Source: Treponema sp.
Lineage (GTDB): Bacteria > Spirochaetota > Spirochaetia > Treponematales > Breznakiellaceae
DNA: 52,066 nt
Assembly (NCBI GenBank): GCA_009777535.1
Contig: WRLP01000020.1
Span: forward strand, 1-52,066
Direction of reading: 5' to 3'
Every line of letters starts with the position of its first letter. Positions within the stretch are counted from its first letter, which is position 1. The notes beneath the pieces are model-generated. The model was not told the origin of the DNA, made no database searches, and saw only the letters and a list, made by a program, of their open reading frames with translations. Made by a program: the position numbers and the translations under genes. Positions 10,926 to 32,219 of this stretch are shown here, one piece after another.

Positions 10926-12290
10926 ATGAACAATATCAGACAAAAATTACAACAATCAGCCCTGGCAGTTCCGGAAATTTTACTGCCAGGGAAAGTTGAC
11001 TTGCAGAAGTGGGCGGTAATTGCCTGCGATCAGTTTACACAAGATCGGGAATATTGGGACAAGGCCGCAAGTTTTACTGCCGGCGCGCCAACTACACTGA
11101 ATTTGATTTTTCCCGAAGTCTTTCTAACCGGTGCAGATAACACACCAAGAATCGCCGCCATTCACAAGGCCATGAAAACTTATCTGGAGCAGGGAGTTTT
11201 TGGCGCGCCGGAAAAGGGATTTGTCTATATTGAACGGGATACTCCGTATCAGAAAGGGCGCAGGGGGCTTGTTGCGGCAATTGATCTGGAGCAGTACGAC
11301 TGGAAGCCGGATACACAGCCGCTTATACGATCGACCGAGGGAACGGTAGCCGAACGGCTGCCGCCCAGAATGGACATCCGCCGGGGAGCGGCGCTGGAAG
11401 TACCGCACGTTCTTCTGCTCATTGACGACGAAACCGGCAGCATGCTGCCTGCTCTGGGCGAACGGGCAAAAAAAAACGCCCCTCTTTATCAAACCAATCT
11501 GATGATGGATTCCGGCTGCATAAGCGGCTGGGCTTTTGACGCCGAAGAAGACCTGGCTTTTCTTGCGGAAAAACTTGAAGAACTCCGCCTCCGCTCCCTT
11601 AACCGTTATGCGGCAGATAAAAACGCTGCCGGCGGCAACGCCGAAAACAGCGATGCCCCCTTTCTTTTTGCCGTGGGCGACGGGAATCATTCCCTTGCAG
11701 CCGCAAAGGGCATTTGGGAAGAATACAAGAAGTCCCGCTCCATAACCGGGCTGCCGGAACATCCATGCCGTTATGCGATGGTAGAAATTGAAAACCTCTA
11801 CGATCCGGCGATCCAGTTCGAACCCATACACCGTGTTGTTTTCGGACTGGGTTTTGACAAAACGCTTTCCCTGCTTTCGCGGCTGCCGGACTTTTCCAGC
11901 CGGCCAGTCAGCGGCCGTGATGAGCTTGTGCGGCTGTGCTCGGAACCATTCAACGGAAACCGCTTCGGCCTTGTATCGGCCGGCCGTTATGCGCTAATAG
12001 AAACCAGTGCAGCCGGCATTTCCACCGCATGTCTCCAGCCGCTGCTGGATGGGGCGCTGGCGGACGCAGGGGGCAGTTCCATATCCATCGACTATATCCA
12101 CGGCGAAGAAGAATTGTTCCGGCTGGCGGAAAACGCCGGGAGGGCGGCGGCGGGAATACTGCTGCCGCCTGTGAACAAGGCCGGCCTGTTTGAAACCGTA
12201 GCTCGCAGCGGCCCCCTGCCCCGAAAAAGTTTTTCCATGGGCAATGCGGCGGAAAAGCGCTTTTATCTGGAGTGCAGACGGTTGTTTTAG
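10926..12290 (+). CDS. DUF1015 family protein
   Basis: 454 aa, the usual length of DUF1015 proteins. The N terminus carries WAVIACDQFTQDREYW and the middle FAVGDGNHSLAAAKGIW, both conserved in the family. No signal peptide or membrane segment is seen, so it should be cytosolic. The biochemical role of the family is not settled to my knowledge. It starts 21 nt after the InlB-repeat lipoprotein gene with a weak GCGGG site and may be read through from it. Its last codons overlap the convergent RelE-like gene by 4 nt. Confidence 0.8.
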   Translation: MNNIRQKLQQSALAVPEILLPGKVDLQKWAVIACDQFTQDREYWDKAASFTAGAPTTLNLIFPEVFLTGADNTPRIAAIHKAMKTYLEQGVFGAPEKGFVYIERDTPYQKGRRGLVAAIDLEQYDWKPDTQPLIRSTEGTVAERLPPRMDIRRGAALEVPHVLLLIDDETGSMLPALGERAKKNAPLYQTNLMMDSGCISGWAFDAEEDLAFLAEKLEELRLRSLNRYAADKNAAGGNAENSDAPFLFAVGDGNHSLAAAKGIWEEYKKSRSITGLPEHPCRYAMVEIENLYDPAIQFEPIHRVVFGLGFDKTLSLLSRLPDFSSRPVSGRDELVRLCSEPFNGNRFGLVSAGRYALIETSAAGISTACLQPLLDGALADAGGSSISIDYIHGEEELFRLAENAGRAAAGILLPPVNKAGLFETVARSGPLPRKSFSMGNAAEKRFYLECRRLF

Positions 12291-27480: not shown

Positions 27481-27519
27481 GCTGTAGTATAAAGTACAAT
27501 TCAACCAGGAGGCTTGGCC

Positions 27520-29979
27520 ATGACAAACCCGGGCAGACCTTTCTCCATCCGGCATTTTCTGTTCTTCGCATTTACTTTTTGTTTAATTACCTGTGATCTT
27601 TTTACCGGTGCAACAGATAATGATCTTCTGAAAAAAATAGACGAGGAAATCGCCTGGGCGAACGCGGCGAAGTTAAATGTATTCATCAGTTATGACCAGA
27701 ATTGGGGCACAAGCAATCCGCCAATGGGGCAAATAACAGGGAACAGGGATATCAGGCGGGGTTATGAATTTGATGTGGAATTCATTCCTGACACAGCTCA
27801 TACCCTGATTGAATGGCGTGCTTACAGCGGTGTTTTGGAAACGGGCTGGGCGGAAAATATAGCCCAATTTGAAATTGCTATGAAAGAGCGCAGACTTGCG
27901 CTGGGGGAAGATTTTATTCTTGTGTCAGAATTTTCTCCAAGGGGCGGAAAAAATACCCTGAAAATCAATACGACCGGAACCATTACCCTTGTTCCCTGGT
28001 GCGAAACAGAACCGCGAATAACCAGAACAACGCCCCTTTTTACTCCCGGTGCTGAATTTCCAAGGGGAACAGTTATCAGTATTTATTTTAATTCACAGCT
28101 TGATGTTTCTTCGGTGCATGATGCAGTTGAAATAAGGAACACAACGGATAATGTTGATTATTCCTCGAGGTACATAATCGAGTATTTTGATGTTGCCGGC
28201 GTTCAGTTTATAACGCTTACTCCAAAAACAGGCAATCTCCCTGAGCCGGATAAAAATATAATGGTTACGGTAAAAGACAATATTGCAAATTTAGCCGGTA
28301 ATTTTATGCCGGTCAGTGTAAGTTATTCATGGAAAACGCTGGCTGCAACAGCCGCCGGTGTTAAAGAATTTGAAGTATCATACAACTCCGGTGATAGAAC
28401 TATTGTTGTTGATAAACTGGAGCTGACAGAGGGCGGCTACGATGAGTGTATAGTTTCCTACACGATAAATGGGGGAACAAGAATACTCCTTCCTGCCGAT
28501 GAAACAATCCGGGGTGTTGGCAGGCTTGTTGATATAAATATCTGGCAGGGCACAGGTGTAAGCGGCCTGCAGGAGTATGAGATTTTCGTAGACATTTATC
28601 AGAGGGGTTTTATTGAAAACAGCGCGTCTGTAAAGATATGGAACATACCGGGCATGGTTGTAAACATCGCTAACACCGCATACATCGACAGCCAGGACGC
28701 CCTCAGCGCCGCTGCCGGCGACGATTCCAAAATAACAAACATTGCGCTGACACAGGATCTATACCTGCATGATTGGACACCGGTAAACTTAGGCAACCGC
28801 AGCTTCTACGGCAGCGGGCATACAGTAACAATAGGCAGCTTTAACTCCGATGGCGAATCCGGTGATATTGGCCTGTTCGCCGCGGTGTCGGATAACGCCC
28901 TAATCCGTGATTTATCAGTAGAATATGAAATTGATCAGGCTTCTGTTACAGGCGAAGTCCGTTTTGGCGGAATAGCGGGAACAATAAAAGATACACAGCT
29001 TCGCAATGTGCGGGTATTGGGCGGGGTGGCGTTGAATGTAAGCGGCAATACTACCTCCGGCGGGCTTGTTGGACTGCTGACCGGAACTTCCGACATTTCC
29101 AATGCATACAGCAGCCTAAATCTTACCGTAATGAATGGAAGCAGTACCGGCATGACAATAGCCGGAGGGTTTGCAGGGCACATCGAGACACTTGGGCCTG
29201 TTATGCAATGTTACAGCAGAGGAAACATTCATGCCGAAAGCCCCGGTATTATACATGCCGGAGGTTTTGCCGGAACAACGAACAGTAAAGTGCAGGACTG
29301 TTATGCCCTGGGAAATGTATACATTGACATTACCAATACAGGAAACAATGGAACATCAACAGTCGGCGGTTTAATAGGGTGGCTTAAGCCTGATAGCGAT
29401 AGTGAGGTAATAACCTGCTTTGCCAAAGGCAATGTTACTGCCCATAATAATGGTAAGGGTGCAGAAAACAAATTGTATGCCGCAGGCATTGTTGGCCTTA
29501 GCGGCAGAGATGAAGTCGGTGATGATGGTCTTCCAAAAGGCTTGCGTCCAATACGGCAAAGTGTTGTTTTGGGAGAAAGTATAACAGCGACTGGTGTTAC
29601 TAACTCTGATTCTTCACCGACTCATGACAGTTACACCATCGGGAGAGTATATGGAAATTTGTCCGGCCAACTTTACAACAATAATTCCACCGATCCTATA
29701 ACTCGTGATAATTTTGGTTATAGTGGATCAGGAAATATATTTGCCAGCGATATCTATAACGATTACACACTTAACAGTATAATTCCTGGAAATGATGGTT
29801 CGAATAGAAACTGTAACCATGGGGCCCTTACGAGTTTTATAAATTTTATTCCCACCACATTTTGGAAAAGGGATCCATCACAATCAAGCGTAGGATTTGA
29901 TAGTTCAGTCTGGGATTTAAGCGACCTGGCTTTGCCTCGCGGCTATCCGTTATTATTAGGCGTTGGGGGACAGGAATAA
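27520..29979 (+). CDS. Surface lipoprotein with Ig-like domain and GLUG-type beta-helix repeats
   Basis: 819 aa from the ATG at 27520, which lies 7 nt after a perfect AGGAGG; a TTG six bases earlier is less likely. The signal peptide ends in the lipobox FCLITC (Cys about residue 23). An SbsA/Big_5-like Ig domain (TTPLFTPGAEFPRGTVISIYF split, to about residue 270) is followed by a long C-terminal region with GLUG-type repeats: GGIAGTIKDTQLRNVRV, GGLVGLL, GGFAGHIE, GGFAGTT and GGLIGWL, each followed by a YS/YA-G-N strand. It has the build of an exposed adhesin or passenger protein. Its ligand is unknown. The type III TA locus follows. Confidence 0.8.
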   Translation: MTNPGRPFSIRHFLFFAFTFCLITCDLFTGATDNDLLKKIDEEIAWANAAKLNVFISYDQNWGTSNPPMGQITGNRDIRRGYEFDVEFIPDTAHTLIEWRAYSGVLETGWAENIAQFEIAMKERRLALGEDFILVSEFSPRGGKNTLKINTTGTITLVPWCETEPRITRTTPLFTPGAEFPRGTVISIYFNSQLDVSSVHDAVEIRNTTDNVDYSSRYIIEYFDVAGVQFITLTPKTGNLPEPDKNIMVTVKDNIANLAGNFMPVSVSYSWKTLAATAAGVKEFEVSYNSGDRTIVVDKLELTEGGYDECIVSYTINGGTRILLPADETIRGVGRLVDINIWQGTGVSGLQEYEIFVDIYQRGFIENSASVKIWNIPGMVVNIANTAYIDSQDALSAAAGDDSKITNIALTQDLYLHDWTPVNLGNRSFYGSGHTVTIGSFNSDGESGDIGLFAAVSDNALIRDLSVEYEIDQASVTGEVRFGGIAGTIKDTQLRNVRVLGGVALNVSGNTTSGGLVGLLTGTSDISNAYSSLNLTVMNGSSTGMTIAGGFAGHIETLGPVMQCYSRGNIHAESPGIIHAGGFAGTTNSKVQDCYALGNVYIDITNTGNNGTSTVGGLIGWLKPDSDSEVITCFAKGNVTAHNNGKGAENKLYAAGIVGLSGRDEVGDDGLPKGLRPIRQSVVLGESITATGVTNSDSSPTHDSYTIGRVYGNLSGQLYNNNSTDPITRDNFGYSGSGNIFASDIYNDYTLNSIIPGNDGSNRNCNHGALTSFINFIPTTFWKRDPSQSSVGFDSSVWDLSDLALPRGYPLLLGVGGQE

Positions 29980-30202: not shown

Positions 30203-30229
30203 TTGACATTTCCCTCTATTTCATATTAT
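30203..30229 (+). promoter_or_regulatory. Promoter of the type III TA locus
   Basis: Consensus TTGACA (30203-30208), a short 15-nt spacer, TATTAT (30224-30229). The predicted RNA start near 30236 is a few bases before the first pseudoknot repeat. Confidence 0.6.
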
Positions 30230-30242
30230 CTTTTATTATGAA

Positions 30243-30336
30243 GTGATTGTAGAACGCAATCACGATAATCTAAAGAAAGTTCGATTGGTGAGGTGATTGT
30301 AGGGCGCAATCACGTTAATCTAAAGAAAGCCCGATT
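30243..30336 (+). repeat. Tandem 50-nt antitoxin repeats
   Basis: Copy 1 30243-30292 and copy 2 30293-30336 (without the final linker). They differ chiefly at the positions of the predicted second stem, where changes compensate each other, and at one linker base (GATAATC against GTTAATC). Confidence 0.85.
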
Positions 30337-30341
30337 TATTG

Positions 30342-30366
30342 CGCCCCTGTAATGGGGCGTTTTTTT
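30342..30366 (+). terminator. Attenuating terminator between antitoxin RNA and toxin gene
   Basis: CGCCCC (30342-30347), loop TGTAAT, GGGGCG (30354-30359), then seven T (30360-30366). The toxin ATG is only 11 nt further. In known type III systems such a terminator keeps the RNA in excess over toxin mRNA. Confidence 0.85.
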
Positions 30367-30377
30367 ATAAGGTAGTT

Positions 30378-30824
30378 ATGAAATTCTATCGTTTGAGTGC
30401 AGCTTTTTATAGAAAATACTGTCAGTTTGATGAGATTCTTACCAAAGAAAACAGACCATATTATGTTTTACTTCTGGAACTAGATGGCCTGACGTATGCA
30501 ATTCCACTTAGATCTCATATTACGCACCCCCACTGTTTTATTGCAGATAATACTGCTGGTCTAAACAGCGGTGTTGACTACTCAAAGGCAGTGGTAATTA
30601 CCGAGAAACAATTCATTGATTCCAGCCAGGTAACAATCCGACAAAATGAATTTAACATTTATAAAAAACGGGAATATCATATTAGGAAACAATTTTCTTC
30701 TTATGTGGCCCATTACAAAAAGGAAGTCCGCCGTCGCCTGCTCAACCCGACCATTCCAATTTCTGCTTTGTGCCGCTTTTCTTCTTTAAAGTACTTTCAC
30801 AAGGAACTCGGTCTTCAGAGTTAA
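30378..30824 (+). CDS. Type III TA endoribonuclease toxin, TenpN-like (ToxN/AbiQ superfamily)
   Basis: 148 aa from the ATG at 30378, with AAGG 5 nt upstream; the frame extension to 30339 runs through the terminator and is rejected. The N terminus MKFYRLSAAFYRKY and the core YYVLLLELDGLTYAIPLRSHI recall TenpN-type toxins, which have the ToxN/AbiQ fold and cut RNA at specific sites. The C-terminal half is basic (KKREYHIRKQFSSYVAHYKK), suiting RNA binding. Placement directly after the RNA repeats and terminator supports the call strongly. Family choice (TenpN rather than CptN or ToxN) is from memory of the PLRSH region and less certain. Such systems can act as abortive-infection phage defence. 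Confidence 0.8.
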   Translation: MKFYRLSAAFYRKYCQFDEILTKENRPYYVLLLELDGLTYAIPLRSHITHPHCFIADNTAGLNSGVDYSKAVVITEKQFIDSSQVTIRQNEFNIYKKREYHIRKQFSSYVAHYKKEVRRRLLNPTIPISALCRFSSLKYFHKELGLQS

Positions 30825-30888: not shown

Positions 30889-30984
30889 CCCTGGGATAAT
30901 TCATAACAGGGGTTTAGATTATCCCGGGGATTGACATTCCCCAATAACTCTTGGATAATTCATAACAGGAGTTTAGATTATCCC
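30889..30984 (+). repeat. Two 59-nt-spaced palindromic repeats before the ATPase gene
   Basis: Copy A has GGGATAAT (30893-30900) and ATTATCCC (30918-30925); copy B has GGATAAT (30953-30959) and ATTATCCC (30977-30984). The centres TCATAACAGG(G/A)GTTTAG match except one base. On the plus strand the loop GG(G/A)G can pair with C(C/T)CT just upstream of each left arm, with one compensating change. The sequence may be a pair of operators or a structured RNA. Confidence 0.75.
30931..30959 (+). promoter_or_regulatory. Promoter of the DUF4143 ATPase, overlapping palindrome B
   Basis: TTGACA (30931-30936), exactly 17 nt, GATAAT (30954-30959). The -10 box is the left arm of palindrome B, so a protein bound there would block transcription. 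Confidence 0.6.
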
Positions 30985-30986
30985 AA

Positions 30987-32219
30987 ATGGCAGATTATAC
31001 CATTTCCAGGCATGCGGAAGATGCCCTTTCGGATCTTATCGGTTCTTTTCCCATTGTTCTTGTAACCGGTCCCCGGCAAATTGGAAAATCAACTCTGCTG
31101 AAAAATGCTAAAAGGACAAGAAAGATACCATATATCAGCTTTGATGATCCTGCCGAAATTATGGCGGTAAAGGCAGACCCCAAAAGTTTCCTTTCCATGC
31201 ACAAGCCACCGGTTATTTTTGATGAAATTCAATATGTTCAGGAATTATTTCCGTATCTGAAAATAGAAGCGGATAAAAACAAAAAAAAGGGAATGTACTT
31301 TCTAACCGGAAGCCAGCAATTCCATTTGATGAAAGATGCAAGCGAAAGCCTTGTGGGAAGAATTGGCATTTTGCAGTTAATGGGATTATCCATGCGCGAG
31401 ATTCGCCGGGATAAATTTAATAAACCCTTTGTTCCGGTAAACGAATATTTTTTGGCCAGAAAAAAAGGCATAGCAAATTACAGCCCCGGCGAAATATGGA
31501 AAATAATCCATACCGGTTTTTACCCTGCGGTAATTACCGGCTACTCCAAACAAAAAGCTTTTTACGATTCATATATCAAAACATATATAGAACGGGATGT
31601 CCGCGCTTTGGCCAATGTGGGTGATGAACTGCAATTTATGCAATTTATAACCGTTGCGGCAAGCCGCACTTCCCAGATGCTGAATTACCGGGATATTGCC
31701 CGTGATGTACAAATAAGTGAACCTACAGCCAAAAAGTGGCTGTCGATTCTGGTAACATCGGGGCTTGTGTACCTTTTGCCGCCATTTTCAGCAAATGTAG
31801 AAAAGCGTGTGGTAAAAACACCAAAACTGTATTTTCTGGATACCGGACTCGCCGCCTACTTAACCAAGTGGTCCAGCCCCGATGTTTTAAGAAACGGAGC
31901 GGCGGCCGGGGCTTTTTTCGAGACATTCGTTATAGCGGAAATACTTAAAAGTTATTACAACAGGGGAACAGAGCCTTCGTTGTTTTATTACAGAGATAAA
32001 GACAACAAAGAGATTGATCTTCTGATAATGCAGGACGGTACTTTGTACCCCCTGGAAATAAAAATGACAGCCACTCCCAAAACAAGCGATGCCGCTGCAT
32101 TCAGGGTTTTGGAAGCTGCAAAAGGCCATAAAACCGGAAGCGGGGGCCTTATCTGCACCAGCGAAGCTTTTGGAATTCTTGACAAGGATCGCTACATCAT
32201 TCCTGTGTCTTATATTTAG
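30987..32219 (+). CDS. AAA_14/DUF4143 ATP-binding protein
   Basis: 410 aa. Walker A VTGPRQIGKSTLL (about 26-38), Walker B PVIFDEIQYV (about 75-84) and sensor TGSQQF are those of AAA_14 ATPases. The C-terminal DUF4143 domain carries FYYRDKDNKEIDLLI and LYPLEIKMTATP, with the E-D-EIK spacing of a PD-(D/E)XK nuclease-like fold, and a winged helix lies in between (ISEPTAKKWLSIL). The family is common in accessory DNA; its cellular role is not settled. No ribosome binding site precedes the ATG, which is only 2 nt past palindrome B. The leader from the predicted start would be about 20 nt. Confidence 0.85.
   Translation: MADYTISRHAEDALSDLIGSFPIVLVTGPRQIGKSTLLKNAKRTRKIPYISFDDPAEIMAVKADPKSFLSMHKPPVIFDEIQYVQELFPYLKIEADKNKKKGMYFLTGSQQFHLMKDASESLVGRIGILQLMGLSMREIRRDKFNKPFVPVNEYFLARKKGIANYSPGEIWKIIHTGFYPAVITGYSKQKAFYDSYIKTYIERDVRALANVGDELQFMQFITVAASRTSQMLNYRDIARDVQISEPTAKKWLSILVTSGLVYLLPPFSANVEKRVVKTPKLYFLDTGLAAYLTKWSSPDVLRNGAAAGAFFETFVIAEILKSYYNRGTEPSLFYYRDKDNKEIDLLIMQDGTLYPLEIKMTATPKTSDAAAFRVLEAAKGHKTGSGGLICTSEAFGILDKDRYIIPVSYI

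Follow-up and report, generated by a model that had tools for sequence, protein, structure and literature searches.

The window analysed here, a 52,066-nt stretch of DNA from Treponema sp., very probably carries a type III toxin-antitoxin locus that lies on the chromosome and belongs to the TenpIN family. The locus is well formed and probably functional, with a toxin activity predicted from sequence and fold, and it adds an intact spirochaete member to this known family. The original prediction of a type III locus in a spirochaete was borne out as to the host, and the type III assignment was upheld by the presence of an antitoxin array, a terminator, a toxin that matches the TenpIN model and a ToxN-like predicted fold. 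The locus comprises the following features:

30203..30232, plus strand: promoter-like site (consensus scan, 10/12, 18-nt spacing)
30239..30288, plus strand: TenpI antitoxin repeat 1 (Rfam RF02925 6A, 49.8 bits; covariance model R1, 65.8 bits)
30289..30338, plus strand: TenpI antitoxin repeat 2 (RF02925, 43.9 bits; covariance model R1, 65.1 bits)
30341..30367, plus strand: intrinsic terminator GCGCCCC-TGTAAT-GGGGCGT with T-run, in the antitoxin/toxin interval
30378..30824, plus strand: TenpN toxin ORF of 148 aa, its ATG preceded by AGGTAG

Both repeats exceed the RF02925 gathering score of 41.2 bits. They stand in tandem with a 50-nt period and are identical at 42 of 50 bases (84%), while no more than 30/50 positions agreed in any of 200 trials in which the 1 kb around them was dinucleotide-shuffled. 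The first stem (S1) is a hairpin, GUGAUUG/CAAUCAC, formed by 30243-30249 with 30257-30263 in repeat 1 and by 30293-30299 with 30307-30313 in repeat 2. The second stem (S2) joins GAAC (30252-30255) to GUUC (30279-30282) in repeat 1 and GGGC (30302-30305) to GCCC (30329-30332) in repeat 2. In each repeat S1 forms 7/7 pairs and S2 4/4 pairs, or 11/11 taken together. Of the eight positions at which the repeats differ, four make up two A-U to G-C double changes, located in the loop (30253-30254 versus 30303-30304) and in its partner (30280-30281 versus 30330-30331); the matched loop and partner changes that had been reported for these tandem 50-nt repeats are thus seen, and the upkeep of a pseudoknot by compensatory change is visible inside one locus. 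The S2 duplexes have energies of -4.2 and -8.7 kcal/mol in cis, compared with +0.3 and -3.2 kcal/mol in trans. Different, self-complementary S2 stems in the two units may help each unit to fold on itself instead of mispairing with the other; however, homotypic arrays are common, and orthogonal S2 stems are therefore not a general explanation.

A covariance model built on S1 alone (R1) found 113 units, nearly all of them in TenpN loci. In the resulting alignment, made with S1 only, S2 was paired in 98.3% of cells, compared with 89.8% when partners were re-dealt and 5-38% when they were slid, and S1 and S2 jointly were paired in 97.4%, compared with 73.3% in the control. Homologues lacking covariation in the second stem had been named beforehand as the observation that would count against the pseudoknot; both-side changes were found at 4/4 S2 pairs across the 113 units. 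Units of the gammaproteobacterial type (model R2) covary too, with a mean S2 energy of -6.7 kcal/mol in cis versus -3.8 kcal/mol in trans. Altogether, the covariation of S1 and S2 in 113 related units argues for one H-type pseudoknot per repeat, as originally proposed, as the predicted fold, and the survey provides a consensus of the TenpI pseudoknot that is grounded in covariation.

The 148-aa protein that follows the repeats had been described as TenpN-like, and it scored 135 bits (E 2e-39) against the NCBIfam equivalog model for TenpIN, NF047358, whose cut-off is 90 bits; this was its only NCBIfam match at E values up to 1. All 71 aligned homologues match the TenpIN model, and one of the 71 also weakly touches the CptIN model NF047359. 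The residues R26, P43, G65, D67 and K70, invariant in the 71-member alignment, are all kept in the window toxin, and its nearest set is formed by spirochaete toxins with 58-69% identity. A comparison of the toxin model with known folds had been recommended; an AlphaFold2 model built on the 71-homologue alignment (pLDDT 94.6) matched ToxN from B. thuringiensis (Z 13.2), AbiQ (Z 13.0), ToxN from Pectobacterium (Z 12.5) and from E. coli (Z 12.2), and CptN (Z 10.0), with MazF proteins ranking lower (Z ~7). ToxN and AbiQ were again the top matches in Foldseek, and the PDB copy searched held no close sequence relative of TenpN. These data indicate that the predicted structure of the toxin is a ToxN/MazF-like endoribonuclease fold. 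A model unlike the ToxN fold had been listed beforehand as a refuting result, and this check, like that of covariation, agreed with the original proposal.

The array lies upstream of the toxin gene on the same strand with a terminator in between, which is the layout of type III toxin-antitoxin loci. The promoter-like site consists of a -35 element, TTGACA (30203-30208), and a -10-like element, TATCTT (30227-30232). Of 11 spirochaete loci with a toxin that were compared, 10 have a TTGAC sequence 35-36 nt upstream of repeat 1, and this conserved position supports the reading of the site as a promoter, in agreement with the original prediction. The intrinsic terminator that had been placed just after the repeats was also found, as a hairpin at 30341-30360 followed by T7, and it is equally placed in several homologues (L129, L123, L132). 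On the far side of the toxin gene, a palindrome-bearing element, GGATAATTCATAACAGG.GTTTAGATTATCC, is present in two copies around a TTGACA promoter-like site at 30890-30986, just before the next gene, and may be an operator. That gene, directly 3' of the toxin (30987-32219), encodes an AAA_14/DUF4143 ATPase that matches the PADLOC candidate defence family PDC-S01 (E 3e-108).

By analogy with the characterised ToxIN, CptIN and TenpIN systems, the single promoter would yield a two-unit precursor RNA, and the terminator would let only part of the transcripts pass into the toxin gene. The TenpN endoribonuclease would cut the precursor into ~50-nt units, which would fold as pseudoknots and hold TenpN inactive in an RNA-protein complex. 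Should the supply of antitoxin fail, for example during phage infection, TenpN would be freed and would cleave RNA, and growth and phage production would stop.

A second TenpI array was found in the same genome, on the minus strand at G000:C4:43022-43122 (L006:7024-7123). Its units show the two S2 types of the window array; its terminator is truncated, a single pair is broken in S1 and another in S2, and no toxin gene is adjacent to it. The TenpN of the window is the sole TenpN of the genome. The second array could feed antitoxin to the toxin of the window. Long proteins with GLUG-motif-type repeats are encoded near both arrays (window 27514-29979, called by a Pfam Glug match; L006:3056-5629, judged by eye). 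Across the spirochaetes, 9 of 19 arrays examined were without an intact toxin:

Toxin absent: C4, G396/L130 and G442/L133
Toxin in fragments: G525/L131, G519/L134 and G449/L135
Toxin with internal deletion: G317/L025
Toxin with insertions: G570/L129
Toxin with frameshift (assembly error possible): G517/L132

S1 and S2 mostly persist in the eight arrays outside the window's genome (L130, L131, L133, L134, L135, L129, L132 and L025). The L130 and L131 arrays are identical at 99 of 100 positions and lie in different genera with different flanks. In another family, 57 of 58 genomes were without an array. Pairing was kept at 178 of 187 pairs in the orphan arrays compared with 240 of 242 in the toxin-bearing loci (Fisher p = 0.012, approximate since the loci are related), and this lower pairing favours slow decay over strong selection. 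The orphan arrays fit the expected order of loss, with the toxin lost first, a fit that does not by itself prove a function. Spirochaete arrays whose toxin is lost or broken seem to be a new extension beyond what is known of TenpIN.

Since toxins are dead in so many relatives, the second array of the window's own genome included, the intactness of the window toxin could be a recent chance, and the locus could be a relic, TenpIN by descent, whose toxin-antitoxin function has been lost in its host. This is improbable, however, because the reading frame in the window is intact with all invariant residues, S1 and S2 form 11/11 pairs twice, promoter and terminator are both present, and the toxin-bearing loci as a class keep nearly all of their pairs. 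The repeats could also be read as a cis-acting leader that controls the downstream gene as an attenuator or riboregulator, rather than as a trans-acting antitoxin; the array and terminator do occupy the 5' leader of that gene, and the Rfam entry '6A RNA' describes a free-standing sRNA, with no toxin partner stated in the Rfam output. A cis role would nevertheless leave unexplained why the element also occurs far from toxin genes, in phages and at orphan loci, and an array together with a terminator and a toxin of ToxN fold is what defines a type III locus; we consider a cis-acting leader very improbable.

It had been suggested, from its two repeats and 50-nt period in a likely spirochaete, that the locus may found a new type III subgroup. 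A scan of 84,980 genomes gave 80 TenpN loci and, with an alignment as the query, viral contigs gave 11; a single-sequence search of the viral contigs returned no close relative of the window toxin. Nearly all of these 91 loci, from many phyla and viruses, carry two copies upstream that repeat every 46-57 nt, and one, L097, has four; the two-copy layout spans Firmicutes, Fusobacteria, Proteobacteria, Fibrobacteres and phage loci. Homologues on plasmids and genomes with 31-41% identity share the common layout. The GAAC and GGGC pair of the window recurs in the spirochaete loci L007, L029, L030 and L031, and with a GU variant in the spirochaete loci L034-L036; GAAC is combined with GAGC in L032, L052 and L066, and other S2 combinations are found in proteobacteria (L080, L088, L103, L106, L117). 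The toxins of the 'Treponema sp.' loci occur, identical, in genomes of the window's genus. The closeness of the window toxin to a spirochaete set speaks for a separate group; however, two repeats, a 50-nt period and heterotypic S2 stems are features of the family, and they therefore define no new subgroup. In the form in which it was stated, the suggestion is refuted by the two-repeat, ~50-nt norm and by a toxin score well over the TenpIN cut-off, and we give it next to no credence. Two loci were unusual in other respects: in Aquibacillus (L083:1411-1513, minus strand) the TenpI array lies opposite the strand of the adjacent TenpN gene, unlike the other loci read, and Clostridium algidicarnis has, downstream of the toxin, another two TenpI units (L054:1699-1800), perhaps starting a tandem second locus.

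TenpI-like pseudoknots were furthermore found, one or two per record, in phage records that lack TenpN. A pattern with S2 fixed and S1 hardly constrained matched 13 viral contigs. In eight of these (L150, L152, L153, L155, L156, L157, L158 and L161), two of which (L152 and L158) represent a single phage, the units have S1 arms that match, and TenpN is absent. A looser pattern added one solo contig, L208, and the contigs L192, L194, L195, L209 and L210, matched by looser patterns, had no covariance-model score and were rejected as chance. A second, gamma-type pattern, with S1 fixed and S2 free, matched 12 contigs compared with one for its scrambled control; TenpN was present in L203 only, and the units are solo in L196-L202 and L204-L207. 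BLAST with one unit returned about 20 records of T4-like phages, all of Aeromonas but for one of Stenotrophomonas, and a very weak match in Vibrio phage D479; short matches of a Firmicute-type unit in named phages were dismissed as not credible. At least 26 phage records, some of them the same or close phages, carry solo units, and TenpN was found in 0 of 26 when the whole records were searched, with both positive controls having TenpN. Among named phages, five complete genomes have a clear unit. Other Rfam sRNAs (FuFi-1, skipping-rope) occur in two solo-unit contigs (L153:2613-2771; L155:10126-10203 and 11135-11364).

In every Aeromonas-type phage examined, and likewise in L196, L198, L201, L204/L207 and L205, the unit belongs to a tRNA cluster and shares the strand of the tRNA genes. 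Besides T4-like Aeromonas phages, several phages that are large and uncultured have the unit embedded in this way. In T4-like phages of Aeromonas and Stenotrophomonas (L211, L212, L213, L215 and L216, ~1182-1250) the unit is unannotated within the tRNA cluster and is bracketed by an 18-bp inverted repeat. Elsewhere, the L158 unit is flanked by DNA-binding protein and terminase genes, and the L157 unit has a holin gene on one side and an endolysin gene on the other. S2 covaries in the gamma-type phage units although the search pattern left it free: its energy was -4.7 kcal/mol in cis versus -2.4 kcal/mol when partners were re-dealt, and a permutation test on 15 distinct units, some of which come from related phages, gave p = 5e-5. 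In the Aeromonas phages, the region of the unit has a better predicted fold than shuffled sequence (z -3.4).

Infections by T4-like phages are among those that TenpIN can abort (PMC5449768), and phage PhiTE has shown that antitoxin mimics carried by a phage can defeat a type III system (PMC3475682). The likeliest reading of the phage units is an RNA decoy against TenpIN, and we lean somewhat towards the view that they are counter-defence RNAs that would be made in infection, occupy host TenpN and prevent abortion. The pseudo-ToxI of PhiTE is a precedent as an antitoxin-like RNA borne by a phage without the toxin; however, wild-type pseudo-ToxI has 1.5 out-of-phase repeats, with no complete unit, and acts only once expanded (PMC3475682), whereas each phage TenpI unit is a whole pseudoknot, in many cases within a tRNA cluster. 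The literature searched gave no account of TenpI units occurring naturally in phages, and solo phage units without TenpN seem to be a new extension beyond known TenpIN, present even in long-sequenced T4-like Aeromonas phages. If they are decoys, RNAs that stand unannotated in phage tRNA clusters would gain a function, Rfam '6A RNA' would comprise both phage decoys and TenpIN antitoxins, and phage evasion of type III systems could readily be tested; such fixed natural decoys would parallel the solitary-repeat RNA anti-CRISPRs that act against CRISPR.

Compared with known systems, the locus resembles ToxIN and AbiQ in toxin fold (Z 12-13) and in general genetic layout. It differs from ToxIN, whose repeats are 34-36 nt long in 2.8-5.5 copies (PMC5086642), by its 50-nt period and two copies, and membership in ToxIN was rejected on these values and on the score of the toxin against the Pfam ToxN model PF13958 (15.2 bits, cut-off 25). 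CptIN is alike in fold (Z 10.0) and is not matched in sequence; the window toxin does not pass its model, and CptIN membership was likewise rejected, the single weak match to NF047359 among the 71 homologues notwithstanding. The Rfam model of '6A RNA' (RF02925) contains S1 only, and its S1 hairpin is that of the window repeats; the loop and tail of its consensus hold the S2 pair GAGC/GCUC. Neither the Rfam output nor the papers searched link 6A RNA to TenpIN, nor was the origin of the name '6A' found in that literature; the present survey ties the two together. The closest likeness is to TenpIN of Photorhabdus luminescens (NF047358), with which the locus shares the toxin family, the order of array, terminator and toxin, and two ~50-nt pseudoknot repeats; it differs by its spirochaete host and by the heterotypic S2 stems of its two units, and is known here from its sequence.
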